Part shown: positions 12,874-64,000 of the stretch, piece after piece
Position numbering within the stretch: the first letter of the stretch is position 1
How the letters are laid out: each line of letters opens with the position of its first letter
Origin: Alphaproteobacteria bacterium
Lineage (GTDB): Bacteria > Pseudomonadota > Alphaproteobacteria > Micropepsales > Micropepsaceae
Direction of reading: 5' to 3'
Length of the DNA: 64,000 nucleotides
Assembly (NCBI GenBank): GCA_020852655.1
Contig: JADZAI010000106.1
Span: 1-64,000 of the forward strand
Made by a program: the position numbers and the translations under genes
The notes under the pieces: generated by a model
The model's database searches: none
What the model was told of the DNA's origin: nothing
The model's input: only the letters and a program-made list of their open reading frames with translations

Positions 12874-15800
12874 TCAGTGAAAATCACGCGATTTCGGTAG
12901 CACCCGCACATTCCGCGGATGCCCGTTGCGTGGGTATTGCGGGTTCTGGGACTCATCGGCCGGGCTCAGCCTGATCGCCGGGTTGTGATCTTCCGACAGG
13001 CGTTTCAGTTCCTCCGTCCGATCGGCCACACGCTCCGCCATCAGGTGGACGACCTCGTCCTTGCTCTTCTGGACCTTGCCCTCGACGAGCAGCAGGCGGC
13101 CGCCCATGATTTCGCGCCGAAAGACATCGAACTGGCGGGCCCAGAGAACGACATTCGTGATGCCGGTCTCGTCTTCCAGCGTGATGAAGATGGCCTTGCC
13201 GTTTCCCGGCCTTTGCCGGACCAACACGACGCCCGCCGTCTTGGCCGACTGGCCGTCCCCCTTTGCGGAGGTCTCGGCGCAGGAGAGCACACGCTCCTGC
13301 GCGAAGACGGGACGGAGTATCTGCATGGGGTGTCCTTTGAGGGACAGACGCGTCGTCTGGTAATCGGCGGCGATGTGTTCCGAGAGCGGCATCTCGGGCA
13401 GGAAACTGTCCGGCTCGTCGCCAAGCTCCGGCGCATCCGCCAGTTCGAACAGCGGGAGAACCTTGCCGTCGGGCATCCGCCGCGCTTCCCAAAGCGCTTC
13501 CCGCCGTCCGAGCCCGGTGGATTGGAAGGCATCCGCATCGGAAAGAAGACGCAGAGCCCGCGCCGGCAGCTTCGCCTTCCGGCGAAGCGCCTCGATGTCC
13601 GCGTAGCCTGCCCCACGATGCGCGACGATCTTCTTCGCCCAATCCTCGCGGAAGCCGTCGATCAGCCGGAAGCCGAGACGTAGCGCGACATGCTTGGCGG
13701 AGTCGCCTTCCAACGTGTGATCCCACATGCTTTCGTTCACATCGATCGGCCGCGCCTCGACATCGTGTTCCTGCATCTCGCGCACGATTTGCGCCGGCGC
13801 ATAGAATCCCATCGGCTGCGAGTTGAGCAGCGCGCAGGCGAAGATCGCCGGGTAGTGGCACTTCAGCCAGGCCGAGATGTAGACGAGGCGGCTGAACGCT
13901 GCCGCGTGGCTTTCCGGAAATCCGTAGCTGCCGAAGCCTTTGATCTGTTCGAAACATCGCTGGGCGAAGTCGCGTTGATAGCCTCGGGCAACCATGCCCT
14001 CGACCATCGCCTTTTCGTATTTCCACATGGTCCCGACGTTGCGAAACGTCGCCATCGCCCGCCGCAAGCCGTTGGCCTGCTCTGATGTGAAATTCGCTGC
14101 TACCATGGCGAGCTGCATCGCCTGCTCCTGGAAGAGCGGGACGCCAAACGTCTTTTTGAGGACGGGAATTAACTCATTGGGATCATGCGGCCACGCTGGC
14201 GATGGGTATGTCACGTCTTCATCGCCGTCTCTGCGCCTGAGATACGGATGCACCATGTTGCCTTGAATAGGGCCAGGCCGAACGATAGCGACTTGAATGA
14301 CGAGATCGTAGAATTTCCTGGGCTTCAGCCGCGGCAGCATGTTCATCTGCGCGCGGCTTTCGACCTGGAAGACGCCGAGAGACTCTCCCCTGCAAAGCAT
14401 GTCGTAGGTGGCGGTATCTTCCCGATCGACGGTTCCAAGGGTGAGATCGCACCCGTCTCGATCTTCATACTCGCGCAGAAGATCGAAGGCCTTGCGAATG
14501 CAAGTCAGCATGCCCAGCGCCAGGACATCCACCTTCATCAAGCCCAGCGTGTCGATGTCGTCCTTGTCCCATTCGATGAAGGTGCGGTCTTTCATAGCCG
14601 CATTGCCGATCGGCACGACTTCGTCCAGCCGTCCTCGCGTCAGGACGAAGCCGCCGACGTGCTGAGACAGATGGCGCGGGAATCCCAAGAGGCGCGAGGC
14701 AAGGCCGACGGCTCTCGCAACAACGGCATTCGCCGGATCGAACCTGGCCTGACGGACATGCGCTTCCGATAGACCATCACCCCAACTGCCCCACTGGGTA
14801 TTTGCCAAACGCGCCGTCACATCTTCGGTGAGCCCCAGCGCCTTTCCGACATCCCGGATGGCGCTGCGCGGGCGATAGTGGATCACCGTCGCGGCTATGC
14901 CCGCGCGATCTCGCCCGTATTTCTCATAGACAGGTTGGATGACCTCCGCACGCCGCTCATGTTCGAAGTCGACGTCGATATCCGGCGGCTCCTTGCGTTC
15001 GGTGGAAATGAACCGTTCGAAGAGAACGTCGTGCTCCGAGGGATCGACCGCCGTTATGCCGAGGACGAAGCAGACAGCCGAATTGGCGGCAGAGCCACGG
15101 CCTTGGCATAGGATGCCTTGGCTGTTCGCGAAGTCGACGATGTGGTGGATGGTCAGAAAGTAGCGCGCATAATCGAGCTTGGCGATCAACTCGAACTCTT
15201 TGCGCAGGAGCGTCTGCACTTTCTCAGACACGCCATTCGGGTAGACGAGAGGCAGGCGCCGGCGCACCAACTCTTCCAGCCAGGTCTGTGGAGTCCAGCC
15301 GGGTGGAATCGGTTCTTCCGGATAGTCGTATTTCAATTCCTCGACAGAAAAACCAACCCGGCCGAGGATATGGTCGATCTCCTCCATGGCCTCGGGCGCA
15401 TCGGCGAAAAGCCGGGCCATTTCCTCGGCCGGCTTTAAATGCCGTTCGGCGTTCTCTTCGAGCAGTCGGCCCGCCTTGTCGATCGTGACGCCTTCGCGGA
15501 TGCAGGTCAGGACATCCTGCAAATCCCGTTGCCCATAGTCATGGTAGAGGACGTTGTTGACGGCGACGATCGCTACATCGGCGTTCCGGGCGATGGCCTT
15601 CAACTGCGTCAAACGGCGTGCATCATTGCCCCGCCGCGGCATGTCGACGCCCAGCCACACATTCCCCGCTCCAACCTCTTCCAGCCTTTCGAGAGTCTGG
15701 CTGAGGATTTTCGATGGCTTCCCAGCGATCACGATCAACAGGAGATACCGCGTGTCGCTGAGCAGGTCATCGAGCTTCAGCTCGCACTGACCCTTCCTGG

Positions 15801-55600: not shown

Positions 55601-55819
55601 GGGTGGAGCGTGCGCCCCAAACCAAGGGGCCCGGACCCGCCGGCGCGGCGGTTCAGGTTCGTCCCTGAGCCGGGCCTGGGCCCAGAAATGTCTTGAGTGG
55701 TGCGGCCAAGAGAGTCGGTCTAGGTCGGTTCTAAGTTATTGACTATAAAGGGATTTTAGACTCCACAAGCACTCCTTCCTAGTGGCAAAACTAGTGGAAA
55801 TTGCCCTTGGGAGGACTCT

Positions 55820-57217
55820 GTGTCCCTGCAAATTCCACACGTCGAATCGGTCGGCCATGGCCGCCGGTATCGCCGAAAGGTGCCCGCCGACATCCAACCC
55901 GTTGTCGGCCGCAAAAGCTGGATTCACCACTGGTCCGGCAAGGTGCCAGAGGACCGCTGGATATTCGAAGCCCGGCGGTTGGCTCGTCAGCATGACCTTG
56001 TGATTGAGCGAGCGCGGGCGGGCGAGCTTCTTGATGCAACGGCCGTGTCGGACGCTGAAGCGACGGCTCGCACTATTCTAAACCAAGACGCAAATCGGCG
56101 GGCGGCGTTCATCGAACTCGCCACCAACGACATCTTCGGCGTCAGCGCCGACAATCCACGCGGGCCGTGGTTGACGGCCGTGTTGAAGGCAATGGACCAC
56201 GGCGGCACCTACGTGCCGGACATCGTGTCCCTTGCCGCTGCCTACGAGCGGGACAAGGAGGCCCTGAGCGCACAGGGTAAGACGCGATCTGAGAAGGCCA
56301 TCCAAGTCGGCGTCGATGCCTTCAGCAGGATAGTCGGCGCCAAGGACGTTCGGCAGATCACCCCGGCCGATGTTGAGGCATGGATGAACGCTGGCCGGAA
56401 GGCCGGGCAGTCGCCACGCACCATCTCGCGCCGGGGCGTGTCGCTAAAGGCGTTGGTGAAGAGGGCTTATCTGAAACTAGGCCATACCGGGATGAACCCG
56501 TTTGCTGCCTTCAGCTTCAGCGTGAAGGCATCAGCGACCGATAGGATGCCCTTCCATCGTCAGCACCTTGACCAAATTGCCGCCTACATGGCGCGATCAA
56601 CGCGGCTGAAGCCGGAGACACGGGCACTTGTACTGCTGGCCCGGAACACCGGCTGCGGCCCCGCCGAACTGTCGGGCCTCACGCTCGCCGACATCAGCTT
56701 GGAGTCGGCCATTCCCTACATCTGGATAAGGCCCAACCGGATTCGTGGTGTGAAAACCGCCATGCGCGACCGTCGCGTCCCGCTGGTCGGTGACGATGTA
56801 GTCGCCGCACTCAACATTGTCAGTCAGCGGGCAACGCGGAACGGCAAAGGCCGCCCGCGCGATACCATCAACCTCTTCCGCTTCCACGCGGAGCGCGGTG
56901 CAGATGTAACCTCCGCTGTCCTCAATAAGCTCATCCGCAGCGCTGGCGTCCCGAAGAGCCGACGCCTGTCCGCTTATTCGTGGCGGCATGGCATGAAGGA
57001 GGCCCTCAGAGCCGCGCACGTCCCTGAGCACATACAGCGCCGTATTCTCGGCCACTCCGGCACCGCCGTGGCCGACAACTACGGGAGCCCAAGTGGCAGG
57101 CTTGAGGAAGCTCGGGACGCCATAACAAAGGCCCTGCCCCACCTTGGCGACATTGACCCGTTGGCATACCGCCCCGGCGAACTGCCGAAGCCGAAGGCGA
57201 AGGGAGCGAAGTCATGA
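55820..57217 (+). CDS. tyrosine recombinase/integrase 1 (apparently lacking canonical Arg I)
   Basis: 465 aa; C-term YSWRHGMKEALRAAHVPEHIQRRILGHSGTAVADNYG; NTGCGPAELSGL where Arg is expected. Confidence 0.85.
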   Translation: MSLQIPHVESVGHGRRYRRKVPADIQPVVGRKSWIHHWSGKVPEDRWIFEARRLARQHDLVIERARAGELLDATAVSDAEATARTILNQDANRRAAFIELATNDIFGVSADNPRGPWLTAVLKAMDHGGTYVPDIVSLAAAYERDKEALSAQGKTRSEKAIQVGVDAFSRIVGAKDVRQITPADVEAWMNAGRKAGQSPRTISRRGVSLKALVKRAYLKLGHTGMNPFAAFSFSVKASATDRMPFHRQHLDQIAAYMARSTRLKPETRALVLLARNTGCGPAELSGLTLADISLESAIPYIWIRPNRIRGVKTAMRDRRVPLVGDDVVAALNIVSQRATRNGKGRPRDTINLFRFHAERGADVTSAVLNKLIRSAGVPKSRRLSAYSWRHGMKEALRAAHVPEHIQRRILGHSGTAVADNYGSPSGRLEEARDAITKALPHLGDIDPLAYRPGELPKPKAKGAKS

Positions 57218-58299
57218 TGACCTTTGATGAGGCCGTTGACGGCTATCTCAAGCGCCATGTGGCGAAGCTCCGCACCGCCGATCAAGTGGAAGGTATATTC
57301 AAGCTGCCGGTATTCGAGCCGTGGCGCTCACGACGGCTGAGCGCGATTGCAGGGAAGGACGTGGCCGACATTCTCGACGTGGTTGAGATGAACGCCGGAC
57401 CCGCAAGGGTGAACCGTGTGCTTGCAGCGGTTCGCGGGCTATTCAACTTCGCAATGTCGCGTGGCTGGATTGACGCAAGCCCGATCCGGCCCGGCCTCGT
57501 GAGGAAGGAAGATTCACGTGACCGAGTCCTGTCCTTCGATGAAGTCGGCGCGATCTGGCGAAGCCTCGGCGACATAGGCGGCCCCTATGCGGGTGCCGCA
57601 AGGATGCTCTTCCTGACCGGGCAACGGGCTACGCCGGTTTCCCAGATGCGTCGCTCCGCCATCGACCGTCGCGCCATGCTGTGGCGCACTACCAGCGCTG
57701 ACCAGAAGAACGGCGTCGCCATGAATGTTCCGTTGTCCCCGGTGGCGCTGAGGGTGATCGCTGATCGGCCCGTGACTGAAGGGCTGGACTTCGTGTTCTC
57801 ATCGGATGGAGCGCAAGGCGTCACAGCGTGGTCATGGTTTAAGGACCGGGTAGATGTGGCCTCCGGCGTTGAGAACTGGCGCTGGCATGACGTGCGGCGC
57901 ACGGTCGCCACGATCATGGGCGGCCTTCTCGGCTTCGATCCTGACACGGTACAGGCGGTTCTAGGGCATTCGGGTAGAGCCCGCATCGGCGTGACGGCGA
58001 TCTATGACCGCAGCGACCGTGAGGATTCCATGAGGCTCGCCCTCAATGCCGTCGCACGCCTCTTGGAGCTTGTCGCTGATCTCGACGGGTGGGCCGTGGT
58101 TGACGATCATCTGCACAGTGTGCGGCCGGGCGAGGATGCGAACGGGCCGCGTGAGCGCCGCGCCGCCTTCCGCCATGCCATTCGGGGGAGCGACTCCTGC
58201 TGGGGCCAATGGCTCTCATCTGTGACAGGCGCGGCAAACGGTCCTATTCAGGAGCCATATCTTCACAAATCGACCTTGACCGCATCCATAAGTATATGA
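57214..58299 (+). CDS. tyrosine recombinase/integrase 2
   Basis: 361 aa; FLTGQRATPVSQM, WHDVRRTVATIM, VLGHSGRARIGVTAIYDR; ATGA overlap with integrase 1. Confidence 0.9.
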   Translation: MMTFDEAVDGYLKRHVAKLRTADQVEGIFKLPVFEPWRSRRLSAIAGKDVADILDVVEMNAGPARVNRVLAAVRGLFNFAMSRGWIDASPIRPGLVRKEDSRDRVLSFDEVGAIWRSLGDIGGPYAGAARMLFLTGQRATPVSQMRRSAIDRRAMLWRTTSADQKNGVAMNVPLSPVALRVIADRPVTEGLDFVFSSDGAQGVTAWSWFKDRVDVASGVENWRWHDVRRTVATIMGGLLGFDPDTVQAVLGHSGRARIGVTAIYDRSDREDSMRLALNAVARLLELVADLDGWAVVDDHLHSVRPGEDANGPRERRAAFRHAIRGSDSCWGQWLSSVTGAANGPIQEPYLHKSTLTASISI

Positions 58300-58487: not shown

Positions 58488-58787
58488 ATGCTAACGGAGC
58501 CTAAGAGCCCATTGGGCTACCGCAGGAAGGAATTGGCGGACCTTTTGAAGTACTGCTTGCCGTACTTCGACCGTCTCGTTTCGAAAGGAAAGCTGCCTAA
58601 GCCTGTACGCGTGCTGGGGCGTCCCTATTGGCCGGTTGAGGATGTAGTCATCCACCTTGTCGGCGCTGAGGGCCGAACAAAGATTTATCGAGGCCAACGC
58701 GCCACGGCGGCGCAGAACAAACGTGAAAGCGTGACGTGGACGGCGGCCAAAACCTCTCACGCCGCCGGGCCCTCAACGCGAGTCTAG
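58488..58787 (+). CDS. AlpA/excisionase-like helix-turn-helix protein
   Basis: LGYRRKELADLLKYCLPYFDRLVSKGKLPKPVRVLGRPYWPVEDVVIHL. Confidence 0.65.
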   Translation: MLTEPKSPLGYRRKELADLLKYCLPYFDRLVSKGKLPKPVRVLGRPYWPVEDVVIHLVGAEGRTKIYRGQRATAAQNKRESVTWTAAKTSHAAGPSTRV

Positions 58788-58789
58788 TC

Positions 58790-60958
58790 ATGCCAAACCT
58801 TGCCGCACGTAAAGAGTGGGCGCTTAAACTCGCACGACTCGGCTTTGAGATATTCCCCATCCCGGCCTTCGAAAAGAAGCCGGAGATCGGCGGAGGCTCG
58901 TGGCTGCTGAAGATGTCGAGTGACCCCGATGTAGTCGCCGGGTGGTTCAACGACACCCCGGATATGAACTACGCTGTCTGTCCCGGCGCTGGCCATGTGG
59001 TCATCGACTTGGACCAGAAGAATGGCAAGGACGGCGTAGGCCATTGGGCCGTGCTTGAGTCTCTTGAAGACACGGACGATTGGGTATCCAGCGCCACCCT
59101 TAGGGTTCGAACGCCAAGCGGTGGCGTCCACCTGTATCTCAAAACCGATGCGTCCGTTTCGAACGGTCACAACTTCGGCGGAAAGGACTGCGGGGTCGAT
59201 ATCCGGGGAGCACACGGTTATGTCGTTGGCCCCTACTCCTACACCGTCGCCGATGAGCGCTCGAAAACATATGAAGGCGAGTACTCCGTAGAGAACGACG
59301 TTGAGATCAGGGCTGCGCCCGAATGGGTGATGAGCCGGACCAACTCAGTCCGCGAGCGGTCGGCCAGCGCTGACGAAGCCCTCACCGAGCTTGATACGGA
59401 AGGTGCCATTCTTCGCTGCCGTCAGTTCCTTGAACGCACCACGGTCGCCGTGAGCGGCCAGAACGGCAACAACTGGACCTACGCGACCATCGCCCGGCTC
59501 CGCTCCATGGGCCTCAGTGAGGACGGGGCCATCGCCCTGATGACAGAGCCGGACGGGTGGAACGAGCGCTGTGAGCCCGCGTGGTCGCTTGAGGAACTAA
59601 GGCTCATCGCCGGGAACGTCTACCAGTATGCCAAGGGGCAGGCCGGTGACTTCGGCGGCGCGATGATCGAAAAGTTTGACCGGGTGTTCGGCGACGGCTC
59701 ATCGGTCGATAGCGACATGGTGGACGTGTCGTCACTCAATCTCGACGCAGAGGATGCGCCCGTCGCTACGCCTCTCAAGGCTTACCTTGAATCCGAGCTA
59801 GACGGCCTGCCAGAACCGGAGTGGCTCATTGATGACGTGCTCCCCGCCAAAGCGCTCAGCGTCGTCTACGGTGCGACAGGCTCCGGCAAGACCTTCTATG
59901 AGTTGGACCGGGTGCTGCATCTCGTGACAGGCCGGACCTATGCGGCACCCGAGCACATGCAGGAAGGGTTCGTAGAAGGCTACGCCGTTACTCGCCCGAT
60001 CAAGGCCACATACGTCGCGGGCGAAGGTGTAACCGGGGTACGAAAACGCATCCGCGCATGGCGTCAGCGCCATGGGTATGAGGGGACGCTTGACCTTTTG
60101 ATCGTCCCCAACATGCCACGTCTCTCTCAGAAGGACGCTGTTGACGCGCTGATAGCAACGATCAAGACCCGGATGCGTAGTTGCGACCTTGTTGTCTTCG
60201 ACACCTTGGGCCGTGCGGCGGCCGGGCTCAATATCAGCGCTGCGCCCGACGTACAGCTTATTGTCGAAGCTGCCGAGTACATCATGCGCTCATTGGACTG
60301 CGGCGTGACATTCATCCATCACACGGGGAAGGACCGTGAGCGCGGTGCTTTAGGCTCAGAGATGGTGATTGCCAACGCCGACTTGGTCGAACGTATCGAT
60401 CTGGTTGGCCAGAGCTACGGTCACCGCGTCATCAAGTCCGCATGCGTCAAGCTGAAGGACTCCGAACTACGCCCGGACATCTTGTTCAAAGGGACGACCG
60501 AAGAACTCGGCAGGGATTACCGTGGACGAATAATTGACTCGCTCGTCCTCACGCGGCTCGACGCCACGCCTGCACCGGCCAACGAGGACGCGCTACGCGA
60601 AGGCAAGAGCCGTAAGGCTAAGTTGGACTACTCAAAGCTCAATCTCGCCCGGTCTCTCATCGAGGCGCACACCGGCCCCCTTAAGCTAACCATGAACGCG
60701 TTGGCCGGTGAGATGGCCCACAAGCTGACGGAACGCGACACCACCGTTACAGACGGACAGTTCGAAAGAGCAAAGGAAGAGTGTCGCAATTTCCTTCGCA
60801 AGGAAGCGACAGGAGCCCTCGCCCGCTTCGCCTACAAGGAAGGCGAGGGAAAGCAGCCGTGGATATTTCAGTCACCCCACCGCGACGTGTCCGCCATCAT
60901 GGACAAAATTGAAGAGAGCGAGCAGTCATCCATTGCTGCGGCGTTCGCTGCGGAGTGA
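58790..60958 (+). CDS. bifunctional DNA primase/polymerase with RepA-like AAA helicase domain
   Basis: N-term ARLGFEIFPIPAFEKKPEIGGGSWL...VIDLDQKNG; GATGSGKTFYELDRVLHL Walker A; VVFDTLGRAAAGLN; FIHHTGKDRERGALGSE. Confidence 0.88.
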   Translation: MPNLAARKEWALKLARLGFEIFPIPAFEKKPEIGGGSWLLKMSSDPDVVAGWFNDTPDMNYAVCPGAGHVVIDLDQKNGKDGVGHWAVLESLEDTDDWVSSATLRVRTPSGGVHLYLKTDASVSNGHNFGGKDCGVDIRGAHGYVVGPYSYTVADERSKTYEGEYSVENDVEIRAAPEWVMSRTNSVRERSASADEALTELDTEGAILRCRQFLERTTVAVSGQNGNNWTYATIARLRSMGLSEDGAIALMTEPDGWNERCEPAWSLEELRLIAGNVYQYAKGQAGDFGGAMIEKFDRVFGDGSSVDSDMVDVSSLNLDAEDAPVATPLKAYLESELDGLPEPEWLIDDVLPAKALSVVYGATGSGKTFYELDRVLHLVTGRTYAAPEHMQEGFVEGYAVTRPIKATYVAGEGVTGVRKRIRAWRQRHGYEGTLDLLIVPNMPRLSQKDAVDALIATIKTRMRSCDLVVFDTLGRAAAGLNISAAPDVQLIVEAAEYIMRSLDCGVTFIHHTGKDRERGALGSEMVIANADLVERIDLVGQSYGHRVIKSACVKLKDSELRPDILFKGTTEELGRDYRGRIIDSLVLTRLDATPAPANEDALREGKSRKAKLDYSKLNLARSLIEAHTGPLKLTMNALAGEMAHKLTERDTTVTDGQFERAKEECRNFLRKEATGALARFAYKEGEGKQPWIFQSPHRDVSAIMDKIEESEQSSIAAAFAAE

Positions 60959-61370: not shown

Positions 61371-61630
61371 GTTCCCGGCTTCACGCCGGGCATAGTGGCC
61401 TTCAGGGTTGCGAGACAGCGACCGAACTCTTCGATGCTGGGTGCCGAGCGCTGCTGGTGAAATAGCGTGAACGCCATCGCCTCTGCGGCCTCGCGCGACT
61501 CAGCTGTGATCGGCTCACGCCGGGACCGCAGCCAGTCAGCTATTTCACGGCTTAGCGCCGCCATGCTCTCTGGCTGGACGCGGAAGCGATTTAGGACGTG
61601 CGTTGGACGCCAAGGGCTAGGCCGGTTCAT
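61346..61630 (-). CDS. hypothetical protein
   Basis: 94 aa, ATG start, overlaps neighbours. Confidence 0.55.
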   Translation of the reverse strand: MNRPSPWRPTHVLNRFRVQPESMAALSREIADWLRSRREPITAESREAAEAMAFTLFHQQRSAPSIEEFGRCLATLKATMPGVKPGTWSIGIIH

Positions 61631-62472
61631 GACACAGCCTTCGCAAGCTGGGCGATCCTGTCGTTTGCGAGACCGGTCGCGATCCGCGAGCTAGGAGTCG
61701 GCCGTCGCCCCATTGTGTACGCTTGGTTCGCCTGCACCGTGGCTTGGTAGGCTACACGCGTACGCTCGATGGCCAGCAGGGCCTTCTTCATGACATCGCC
61801 GACGACGGCCGTGCTGAATGCTTGTGAAGAGTATGGCCGCGCCTTCGCCGGTAGTTCATCCAACCGCATAAGCAATGCCCCGGCCAGCGGCACGTTCTTC
61901 GTCGCAACCGCGAGTTCGCACAGGTTACGGACTTCGGCGACATTCGCATGCGCGATCTGCTGCTGGTACACGGAACGGCGTTCATGCCCCAGACTCAGTC
62001 GGGACAGCACCTGTTGGGGTGTCCGCCAAAACTTCGCCAACAGGTCAGCCTTCTTGTACTCATCCCGTAGCTGATCCATCGCCGTAGCGCGCGCATCCTT
62101 GCTGATCGCGGTGACACGGGTGCGATCATCCGAAATGTCTTTGCTGATGATCCGTTCGGCATCGCCTTTCGAGGTGAGGCCCAAGCCTGCAATGCGGTCA
62201 CGGATTGAACGCTCAGAGCGCTCCAACTCCTTCAGCCCGGCATCGATGTGCTGCTTGATCGTGTCGGCCTTCGACTGGGCGGACGCAGCAATTGCGTCGA
62301 GGTTACTGCTGTCAAAGCCTTCGAGGCCAACCAGCACTTCCAACTGCGGGTCCGAATTGACTGCCAGGTCTTCAAGCGTCACTGAGCGCATCGGCTCCGG
62401 TGTCGCGGCAGGGTCTTCCGCTTCGCGGGCGGCGACGCCCGCAGCTATCTTATCCGTCGTACTCATGTTCAT
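61627..62472 (-). CDS. hypothetical alpha-helical protein
   Basis: 281 aa from ATG at 62472; ATGA overlap with the next gene. Confidence 0.6.
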   Translation of the reverse strand: MNMSTTDKIAAGVAAREAEDPAATPEPMRSVTLEDLAVNSDPQLEVLVGLEGFDSSNLDAIAASAQSKADTIKQHIDAGLKELERSERSIRDRIAGLGLTSKGDAERIISKDISDDRTRVTAISKDARATAMDQLRDEYKKADLLAKFWRTPQQVLSRLSLGHERRSVYQQQIAHANVAEVRNLCELAVATKNVPLAGALLMRLDELPAKARPYSSQAFSTAVVGDVMKKALLAIERTRVAYQATVQANQAYTMGRRPTPSSRIATGLANDRIAQLAKAVS

Positions 62473-62582
62473 GCTCCCGTCCAATCGAGATTTCCGTCGA
62501 TGTGCGAGAGTGGACACAGAACCTCTCCGGCGGGCTCCCGCCCGTGCTCCGGCGACTTCACAGTCAATTGGAGGACCAACCA

Positions 62583-62711
62583 ATGGAAGTATCACACTCA
62601 CCACCGGCCGGAGGGTCCATACCGCACGCTGTGAATTTGGACCGGCTGCCGAGGAAGGGATGCCCCACAAATGGCAGCTTGGCTTTAACCACGCGGCTAT
62701 GCCGCCTTTAG
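62583..62711 (+). CDS. candidate small ORF (42 aa)
   Basis: MEVSHSPPAGGSIPHAVNLDRLPRKGCPTNGSLALTTRLCRL; GGAGG 8 nt before ATG. Confidence 0.25.
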   Translation: MEVSHSPPAGGSIPHAVNLDRLPRKGCPTNGSLALTTRLCRL

Positions 62712-63105: not shown

Positions 63106-63474
63106 CTAGACCCGGACCACACCCCAAGCCGGTGCGTCACCTTCGGCGTCGCGTTCTTGTTCGCGATTTTTCTCCGGCAGGGCGTTGCTGTGCTCGGCGT
63201 TGAAGGCCCGTTCGCGTTCTAGCTGCTGAGCGAGCGCCTCAAGTGACTGCTGTTCCCAGTGTTCCTCAGCCGCTCTTTGGCCAGCCGGACTCTTCGGTGA
63301 GTATGTGGCAATGCCGATAGCCGGAGCATATGCCACTTCATCTGGCCTTAGGCCGTACGCCGTTGCGTCCCGCGCCAGTGTTTCCATGGCACCGAGGGCA
63401 TACAGGACCATCGTCGGGTTCTCGCCTGTAGTAGCCGTTGCGGCGTGGGCCTTTGGCTGTCGTCTACCCGCCAT
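63106..63474 (-). CDS. hypothetical protein
   Basis: ATG MAGRRQPKAHA at 63474; overlaps upstream gene. Confidence 0.5.
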   Translation of the reverse strand: MAGRRQPKAHAATATTGENPTMVLYALGAMETLARDATAYGLRPDEVAYAPAIGIATYSPKSPAGQRAAEEHWEQQSLEALAQQLERERAFNAEHSNALPEKNREQERDAEGDAPAWGVVRV

Positions 63475-64000
63475 CGTCAACCTCCATGGCTTCGAACTCT
63501 GCGTCTTCAATGTCGTCTTCGGCGAACGGCGCGGGCAGTGCGCGATTGTCGGAGATCGTTTCCAAGACAGCCTTCAACTGCCTTCGCTGATCCGGGCTAA
63601 GGCGGTTCACGTCGTTGAGGCTGATCGGAACAGCGGCATGGGTATGGCTGTGCTGCACCTCGCCGGTGATGGCGACTTCCTTCCGGTCACCGTAGGTCTC
63701 CGGAAGTCGGCGGCTGAGCATGAAGGCCAGCAGCTTGTTGTCGAAAACCTTCTTGCTTCCGGTGATCTCACCGCGCCAGACGATGGGCTCATCCATGCCG
63801 TTCACCGCGCGGTCCATCGCGACCTTTTCGAGACGGCTCAGCGCTTTCTGAAGCGCGGCTTCCTGACGAGCGGCGAAGACTCCGTCCCTACGCGCCAAGC
63901 TGGCAAACGTAGCGTTGGCCGAAGTGCCATCGCTCAGATGCGGCAATACGGCCAATGCCGCCCATGCCTTTACGCCGGTTTCGGCGAGAACCTCCAAGTA
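63464..64000 (-). CDS. terminase small subunit-like protein, partial (start beyond window)
   Basis: RQEAALQKALSRLEKVAMDRAVNGMDEPIVWRGEITGSKKVFDNKLLAFMLSRRLPETYGDRK; frame still open at 64000. Confidence 0.55.
   Translation of the reverse strand, partial: YLEVLAETGVKAWAALAVLPHLSDGTSANATFASLARRDGVFAARQEAALQKALSRLEKVAMDRAVNGMDEPIVWRGEITGSKKVFDNKLLAFMLSRRLPETYGDRKEVAITGEVQHSHTHAAVPISLNDVNRLSPDQRRQLKAVLETISDNRALPAPFAEDDIEDAEFEAMEVDDGG

Follow-up and report, generated by a model that had tools for sequence, protein, structure and literature searches.

An unusual tandem of tyrosine recombinases, the first with glycine at the Arg I position, in a PICI-like island of an alphaproteobacterium

Recombinase genes and their island

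The stretch of DNA analysed here (the window; 64,000 nucleotides, positions 1 to 64,000 of contig JADZAI010000106.1 from a member of the Micropepsaceae) carries two adjacent tyrosine recombinase genes, hereafter named Int1 and Int2. Both frames are intact and both proteins matched PF00589 above the curated cut-off (31.7 bits for Int1), in agreement with where an earlier sequence-only reading of the window had placed the two genes. Int1 starts with a GTG codon, with GGAGG at 55810, and overlaps Int2 through the ATGA already noted in that reading, an arrangement as in coupled recombinase operons; we infer that Int2 is made by translational coupling to Int1. The features are listed below, those beyond the window with contig positions.

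55698 to 55711, no strand: attL core of 14 bp, TGGTGCGGCCAAGA, a copy of the tRNA-Leu(GAG) 3' end
55778 to 55801, forward strand: two tandem arm-type repeats, [AC]CTAGTGG[AC]AA, 12 bp apart
55820 to 57217, forward strand: Int1, a 465-residue tyrosine recombinase with an arm-binding-like N-terminus, a core-binding domain and a catalytic domain
56657 to 56659, forward strand: Gly280 codon (GGC) of Int1, the Arg I position by alignment with relatives
56765 to 56767, forward strand: Arg316 codon of Int1 (K312+4), candidate substitute, basic only in Arg I-less lineages
57214 to 57217, forward strand: 4-bp ATGA shared by the Int1 stop and Int2 start codons
57214 to 58299, forward strand: Int2, a 361-residue tyrosine recombinase with core-binding and catalytic domains and a long C-terminal tail, without an arm-binding region
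58488 to 58787, forward strand: AlpA/excisionase-like HTH gene, a weak match (phrog_66, E=0.0023; HTH_17 below cut-off)
58736 to 60958 (likely start 58791), forward strand: Prim-Pol/AAA replication protein (PF09250, 2e-24; PF13481, 2e-30)
61627 to 62670, reverse strand: conserved island protein with no assigned function, also in the sibling islands of G009 (L123, L124)
63464 to 63997, reverse strand: terminase small subunit (TerS)-like gene (phrog_4044, 7e-15), which may start beyond the window
Contig 66447 to 68052 (L037:2447-4052), beyond the window: ShosTA-like pair (phosphoribosyltransferase and DprA-like), cargo
Contig 68648 to 69442 (L037:4648-5442), beyond the window: AbiV-like HEPN gene, cargo
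Contig 71103 to 71126: second pair of arm-type repeats, [AC]CTAGTGG[AC]AA
Contig 71179 to 71192, beyond the window: attR core, TGGTGCGGCCAAGA, inside an intact tRNA-Leu(GAG)

The 15.5-kb segment from contig position 55698 to 71192, with the Int1/Int2 pair at one end, resembles in its gene content a PICI-like phage-satellite island at the 3' end of tRNA-Leu(GAG). The tRNA gene was called by ARAGORN (L037:7179-7265), and four sister genomes of the genus have this tRNA and its neighbours without the 15.5-kb insert in that interval. The 14-bp att repeat is not significant by itself; we accepted it on three grounds: its identity with the 3' end of the tRNA, the arm sites beside it and its agreement with the sister genomes. 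The arm-type motif occurs four times in 124 kb (0 expected in shuffles), with two tandem copies just inside each island end, and this arrangement is the layout of lambda-type arm sites.

A site-specific att, an integrase, an AlpA-like gene (the weak match above), a primase and terS, the set looked for in a PICI-like satellite, were all found within ~15 kb, and a trypsin-like gene is also among the contents. The AlpA-like product is likely to be a regulator or directionality factor; with this gene at 58488, the directionality role that had been suggested for Int1 is not needed. The size of ~15 kb, the integrase at one end, the AlpA-like regulator, the primase-replication gene, terS and the defence genes are all as in Gram-negative PICIs (PMC6092414); the presence of two integrase genes is not.

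Active site of Int1 and persistence of the arginine loss

Box I of Int1 reads TGCGPAE, whereas TGCRLAE, TGCRGAE, TGARPRE and TGMRLAE are found elsewhere in the alignment with its relatives. Position 280 is Arg in 35/35 aligned relatives with an intact Arg I and Gly in Int1, which thus lacks the catalytic Arg I, one of the best-conserved positions in tyrosine recombinases. The sequence-only reading had recognized this loss and is borne out on it, but had read an Arg to Pro change, which the alignment rules out: Pro is the following residue, and the better alignment that might have revealed an intact Arg I still shows Gly280. A second supposed defect, YSWRH in place of HxLRH, is also ruled out, as relatives with an intact Arg I (L007, L015, L021, L106, L110 and L111) likewise carry Tyr where HxxR has its first His, and Tyr at that position of the pentad is a described natural variant (PMC4381057). 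The other catalytic residues of Int1 are present (K312 as the Lys, R389 as Arg II, H412 as the box II His and Y421 as the nucleophile), as is H390; the sequence-only reading had likewise listed the Lys, LGHS and NYG as retained. Without Arg I, Cre and Flp are unable to recombine, which counts against an active Int1, and are still capable of synapsis (PMC4381057).

An AlphaFold2 model of Int1 built from 15 sequences was of moderate quality (pLDDT 79.7, pTM 0.57) and showed an N-terminus of beta-beta-alpha-beta topology together with a core-binding domain made of helices and the catalytic domain. A PDB search by Int1 sequence gave no match; the best PDB matches of the model were Tn1549 Int, XerA and lambda Int, so that the structural comparison proposed earlier places Int1 in the tyrosine recombinase fold. 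Of the pair, only Int1 has the arm-binding-like N-terminus.

A single close homologue of Int1 was found (G087:C22:11882-13216, in WGNJ01000028.1; L003/L035), with 46% identity, in a related island from another genus of the same bacterial family. Searches of viral contigs, the first genome scan and searches of phages and plasmids (matches of only 25–32% identity) yielded no close relative of Int1, and alignment A2 was too diverse to serve for scanning. The homologue forms a clade with Int1 (support 100/98), and its box I, TGAGPAE, has Gly at Arg I as in Int1, which makes a sequencing error in the Int1 codon unlikely. Between these two proteins, which are the whole sample for the Arg to Gly change, 60% of the fourfold sites in codons of conserved residues are different, against 46% of residues retained, indicating that both evolved under constraint. 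Such heavy synonymous divergence against a kept protein rules out a recent pseudogene, and with the synonymous sites this diverged the Arg-less state looks old and maintained. Conservation in 85% or more of the relatives singles out 20 catalytic-domain positions; Int1 and the homologue each keep 18 of them, the exceptions being 280 and 316. To judge from these alignments, Int1 does not resemble an enzyme in decay.

In the 40 kb read around the homologue, no further tyrosine recombinase turned up. Pairing with Int2 is therefore not obligatory, and the residue that persists in Int1 and its sole close homologue is Gly, not the Pro of the sequence-only reading. An Int1 homologue both alone and active would, according to that reading, speak against a two-subunit enzyme; this one is alone and may be active.

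Position 316 is basic in 6/6 members of the two Arg-less lineages (Arg in Int1 and its homologue, Lys or Arg in 4/4 of a separate clade) and in 0/35 Arg I-intact relatives, 30/35 of which have Ser, a signal that is exploratory, being picked after a scan of ~200 columns and resting on two lineages, one with other catalytic residues lost. It was the sole column with this pattern, and any such column appeared in 4/232 control clade-pair tests. At position 275 the Int1 clade alone has Arg or Lys, and 0/36 others are basic there. The signal at 316 is tempered by XerD and lambda Int, in which a basic residue lies close to the equivalent place even though Arg I is present. With this reservation, covariation points to Arg316 as the best candidate substitute for Arg I; Arg275 comes second.

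The separate Arg I-less clade (L019, L022, L024 and L025; G235, G333, G413 and G102) comes from 1.4-Mb genomes. It keeps 12–14 of the 20 conserved catalytic-domain positions and has lost further catalytic residues.

Int2, sibling islands and known systems

Int2 keeps R138, the Lys (DQK), HDVRR, LGHS and Tyr264; all of these but the Lys had been listed in the sequence-only reading (as GQR, HDVRR, LGHS and YDR). Two departures had been missed. Its box I is TGQRATP, with the Arg present and the conserved Glu changed to Pro (P141), and its N-terminal region is absent: relatives from the same bacterial family have about 90–227 residues ahead of the first residue of Int2, in the place of the arm-binding domain, and the open frame leaves room for at most 19 upstream, so that Int2 is not an arm-binding (complex) integrase. 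The tail after Tyr264 (58006 to 58299) is 97 residues long, compared with mostly 20–53 in relatives, and no homology was found for it.

Six sibling islands of the same family (two each in G009 and G023, one each in G020 and G087) have one tyrosine integrase each, with one serine recombinase near it in every case. No PF00239 gene was detected in the genome of the Int1/Int2 pair itself, and the flanks (mostly 1.5 kb) of ~90 loci showed no pairing of an Int1-type with an Int2-type gene. The idea that the serine recombinase is a special partner of the solo homologue in G087 was weakened, as a serine recombinase is also present in the five siblings whose integrases are of Arg I type. Since the ends of the G087 island are poorly fixed, the solo homologue may not be what moved it. 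An 11-bp repeat there, GTTTAGTCGCA (L035:789-799 and 13306-13316), is a possible att core and lies within chance.

The direct families of the two proteins are single DUF6538-like island integrases for Int1 (e.g. L107-L110) and phrog_1 integrases for Int2 (L042-L058). In these, Arg I and a complete N-terminal region are both present, and their flanks showed no tandem partner. Among characterized enzymes, IntDOT (IntCTnDOT) lacks Arg I and uses another Arg in its stead, and IntDes has a shifted Arg I and Tyr for the first His (PMC8138268). Int1 is similarly of arm-binding type without Arg at the usual place, and shares the Tyr with IntDes; it differs in belonging to a DUF6538-like alphaproteobacterial family and in that its substitute residue is a candidate from covariation only. 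Moreover, IntDOT and IntDes are not described as tandem pairs in that source.

Neighbouring recombinase genes, one of them devoid of Arg I or of the whole RHRY motif, are known from GInt elements (ginABCD), where GinC, without the first Arg, is needed for excision and integration (PMC5385486), and from SE elements, where an RHRY-less Tfp is encoded in the coupled operon intA-tfp-intB-srap (PMC10214605). Translational coupling is probable in SE modules, and the Int1/Int2 overlap is alike in this respect. In contrast with both systems, the present locus has only two recombinases, followed by the AlpA-like and Prim-Pol genes, and a tRNA target; unlike Tfp, Int1 keeps the Tyr nucleophile and the remaining catalytic residues. 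No close sequence relation to GInt or SE modules was found. Two recombinases against ginABC plus ginD rule out a GInt, and two genes against three overlapping ones rule out a RIT element.

Possible roles of the two recombinases

The pair is genuine and represents an uncommon form of integration machinery already known; that its members make up a two-part enzyme is a hypothesis. We tentatively favour, at a little below an even chance, the reading of Int1 as a functional integrase of arm-binding type whose active site is atypical, and of Int2 as an accessory coupled to it, because an Arg-less protein stands alone in G087 and the nucleophile is kept. Int1 and Int2 would together form the integration module of a PICI-like island at the tRNA-Leu(GAG) 3' end, with Int1 as the arm- and core-binding integrase. 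Arg I would have changed to Gly in the small Int1 lineage with the remaining active site under selection, and Int1 would most likely still cut and join DNA, another basic residue (Arg316, or secondly Arg275) replacing Arg I. Int2 would probably serve as an accessory, either as an extra catalytic subunit or as a resolvase taking the place of the siblings' serine recombinase.

Since complementary parts are missing and GInts need an Arg-less partner (PMC5385486), the explanation that comes next is a split recombinase, in which Int1 would be a dead architectural subunit binding arm and core sites and Int2 the catalytic one, within a mixed tetramer. We regard this as rather unlikely. The losses are indeed complementary, Int1 having the arm-binding-like N-terminus without Arg I and Int2 the reverse; the ATGA coupling, the synapsis by Arg I-less Cre and Flp (PMC4381057), the need for GinC and the presence of Tfp in the SE operon (PMC10214605) all agree with it. 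However, the G087 homologue has Gly without an Int2 partner, the Int1 nucleophile and other catalytic residues were kept across deep divergence, sibling islands manage with one integrase, and Int2 has itself lost the box I Glu. The stricter form, with Int1 holding arm and core sites without cleaving, Int2 cleaving without holding arm sites and both needed in a mixed tetramer on the tRNA-Leu att, is unlikely in our judgement. Thus the two-subunit recombinase of the sequence-only reading gains from the complementary losses and loses ground to the solo homologue and the catalytic residues retained in Int1.

That one or both proteins are degenerate, in an island that does not move or does so only through Int2 or helper-phage enzymes, seems improbable: the two separate departures (loss of Arg I from Int1, and of both the arm-binding region and the Glu from Int2) and the 97-residue tail of Int2 would fit such a relic, but both frames are intact, the Int1 clade is under constraint, and each island end has its att core and arm sites intact. 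Very improbable, in our view, is a division of labour in which Int1 integrates and excises and Int2 resolves multimers instead of a serine recombinase; it would account for six siblings with that enzyme and a genome that has Int2 and no PF00239 gene, yet it is a single case, and the relatives of Int2 are ordinary island integrases, not resolvases.

With Arg I lost long ago and the rest of the active site, the att site and the arm sites kept, the locus offers a testable case of either a relocated arginine or an enzyme made from two genes. The pair thereby bears on how frequent non-cleaving partners may be in islands with several recombinases.
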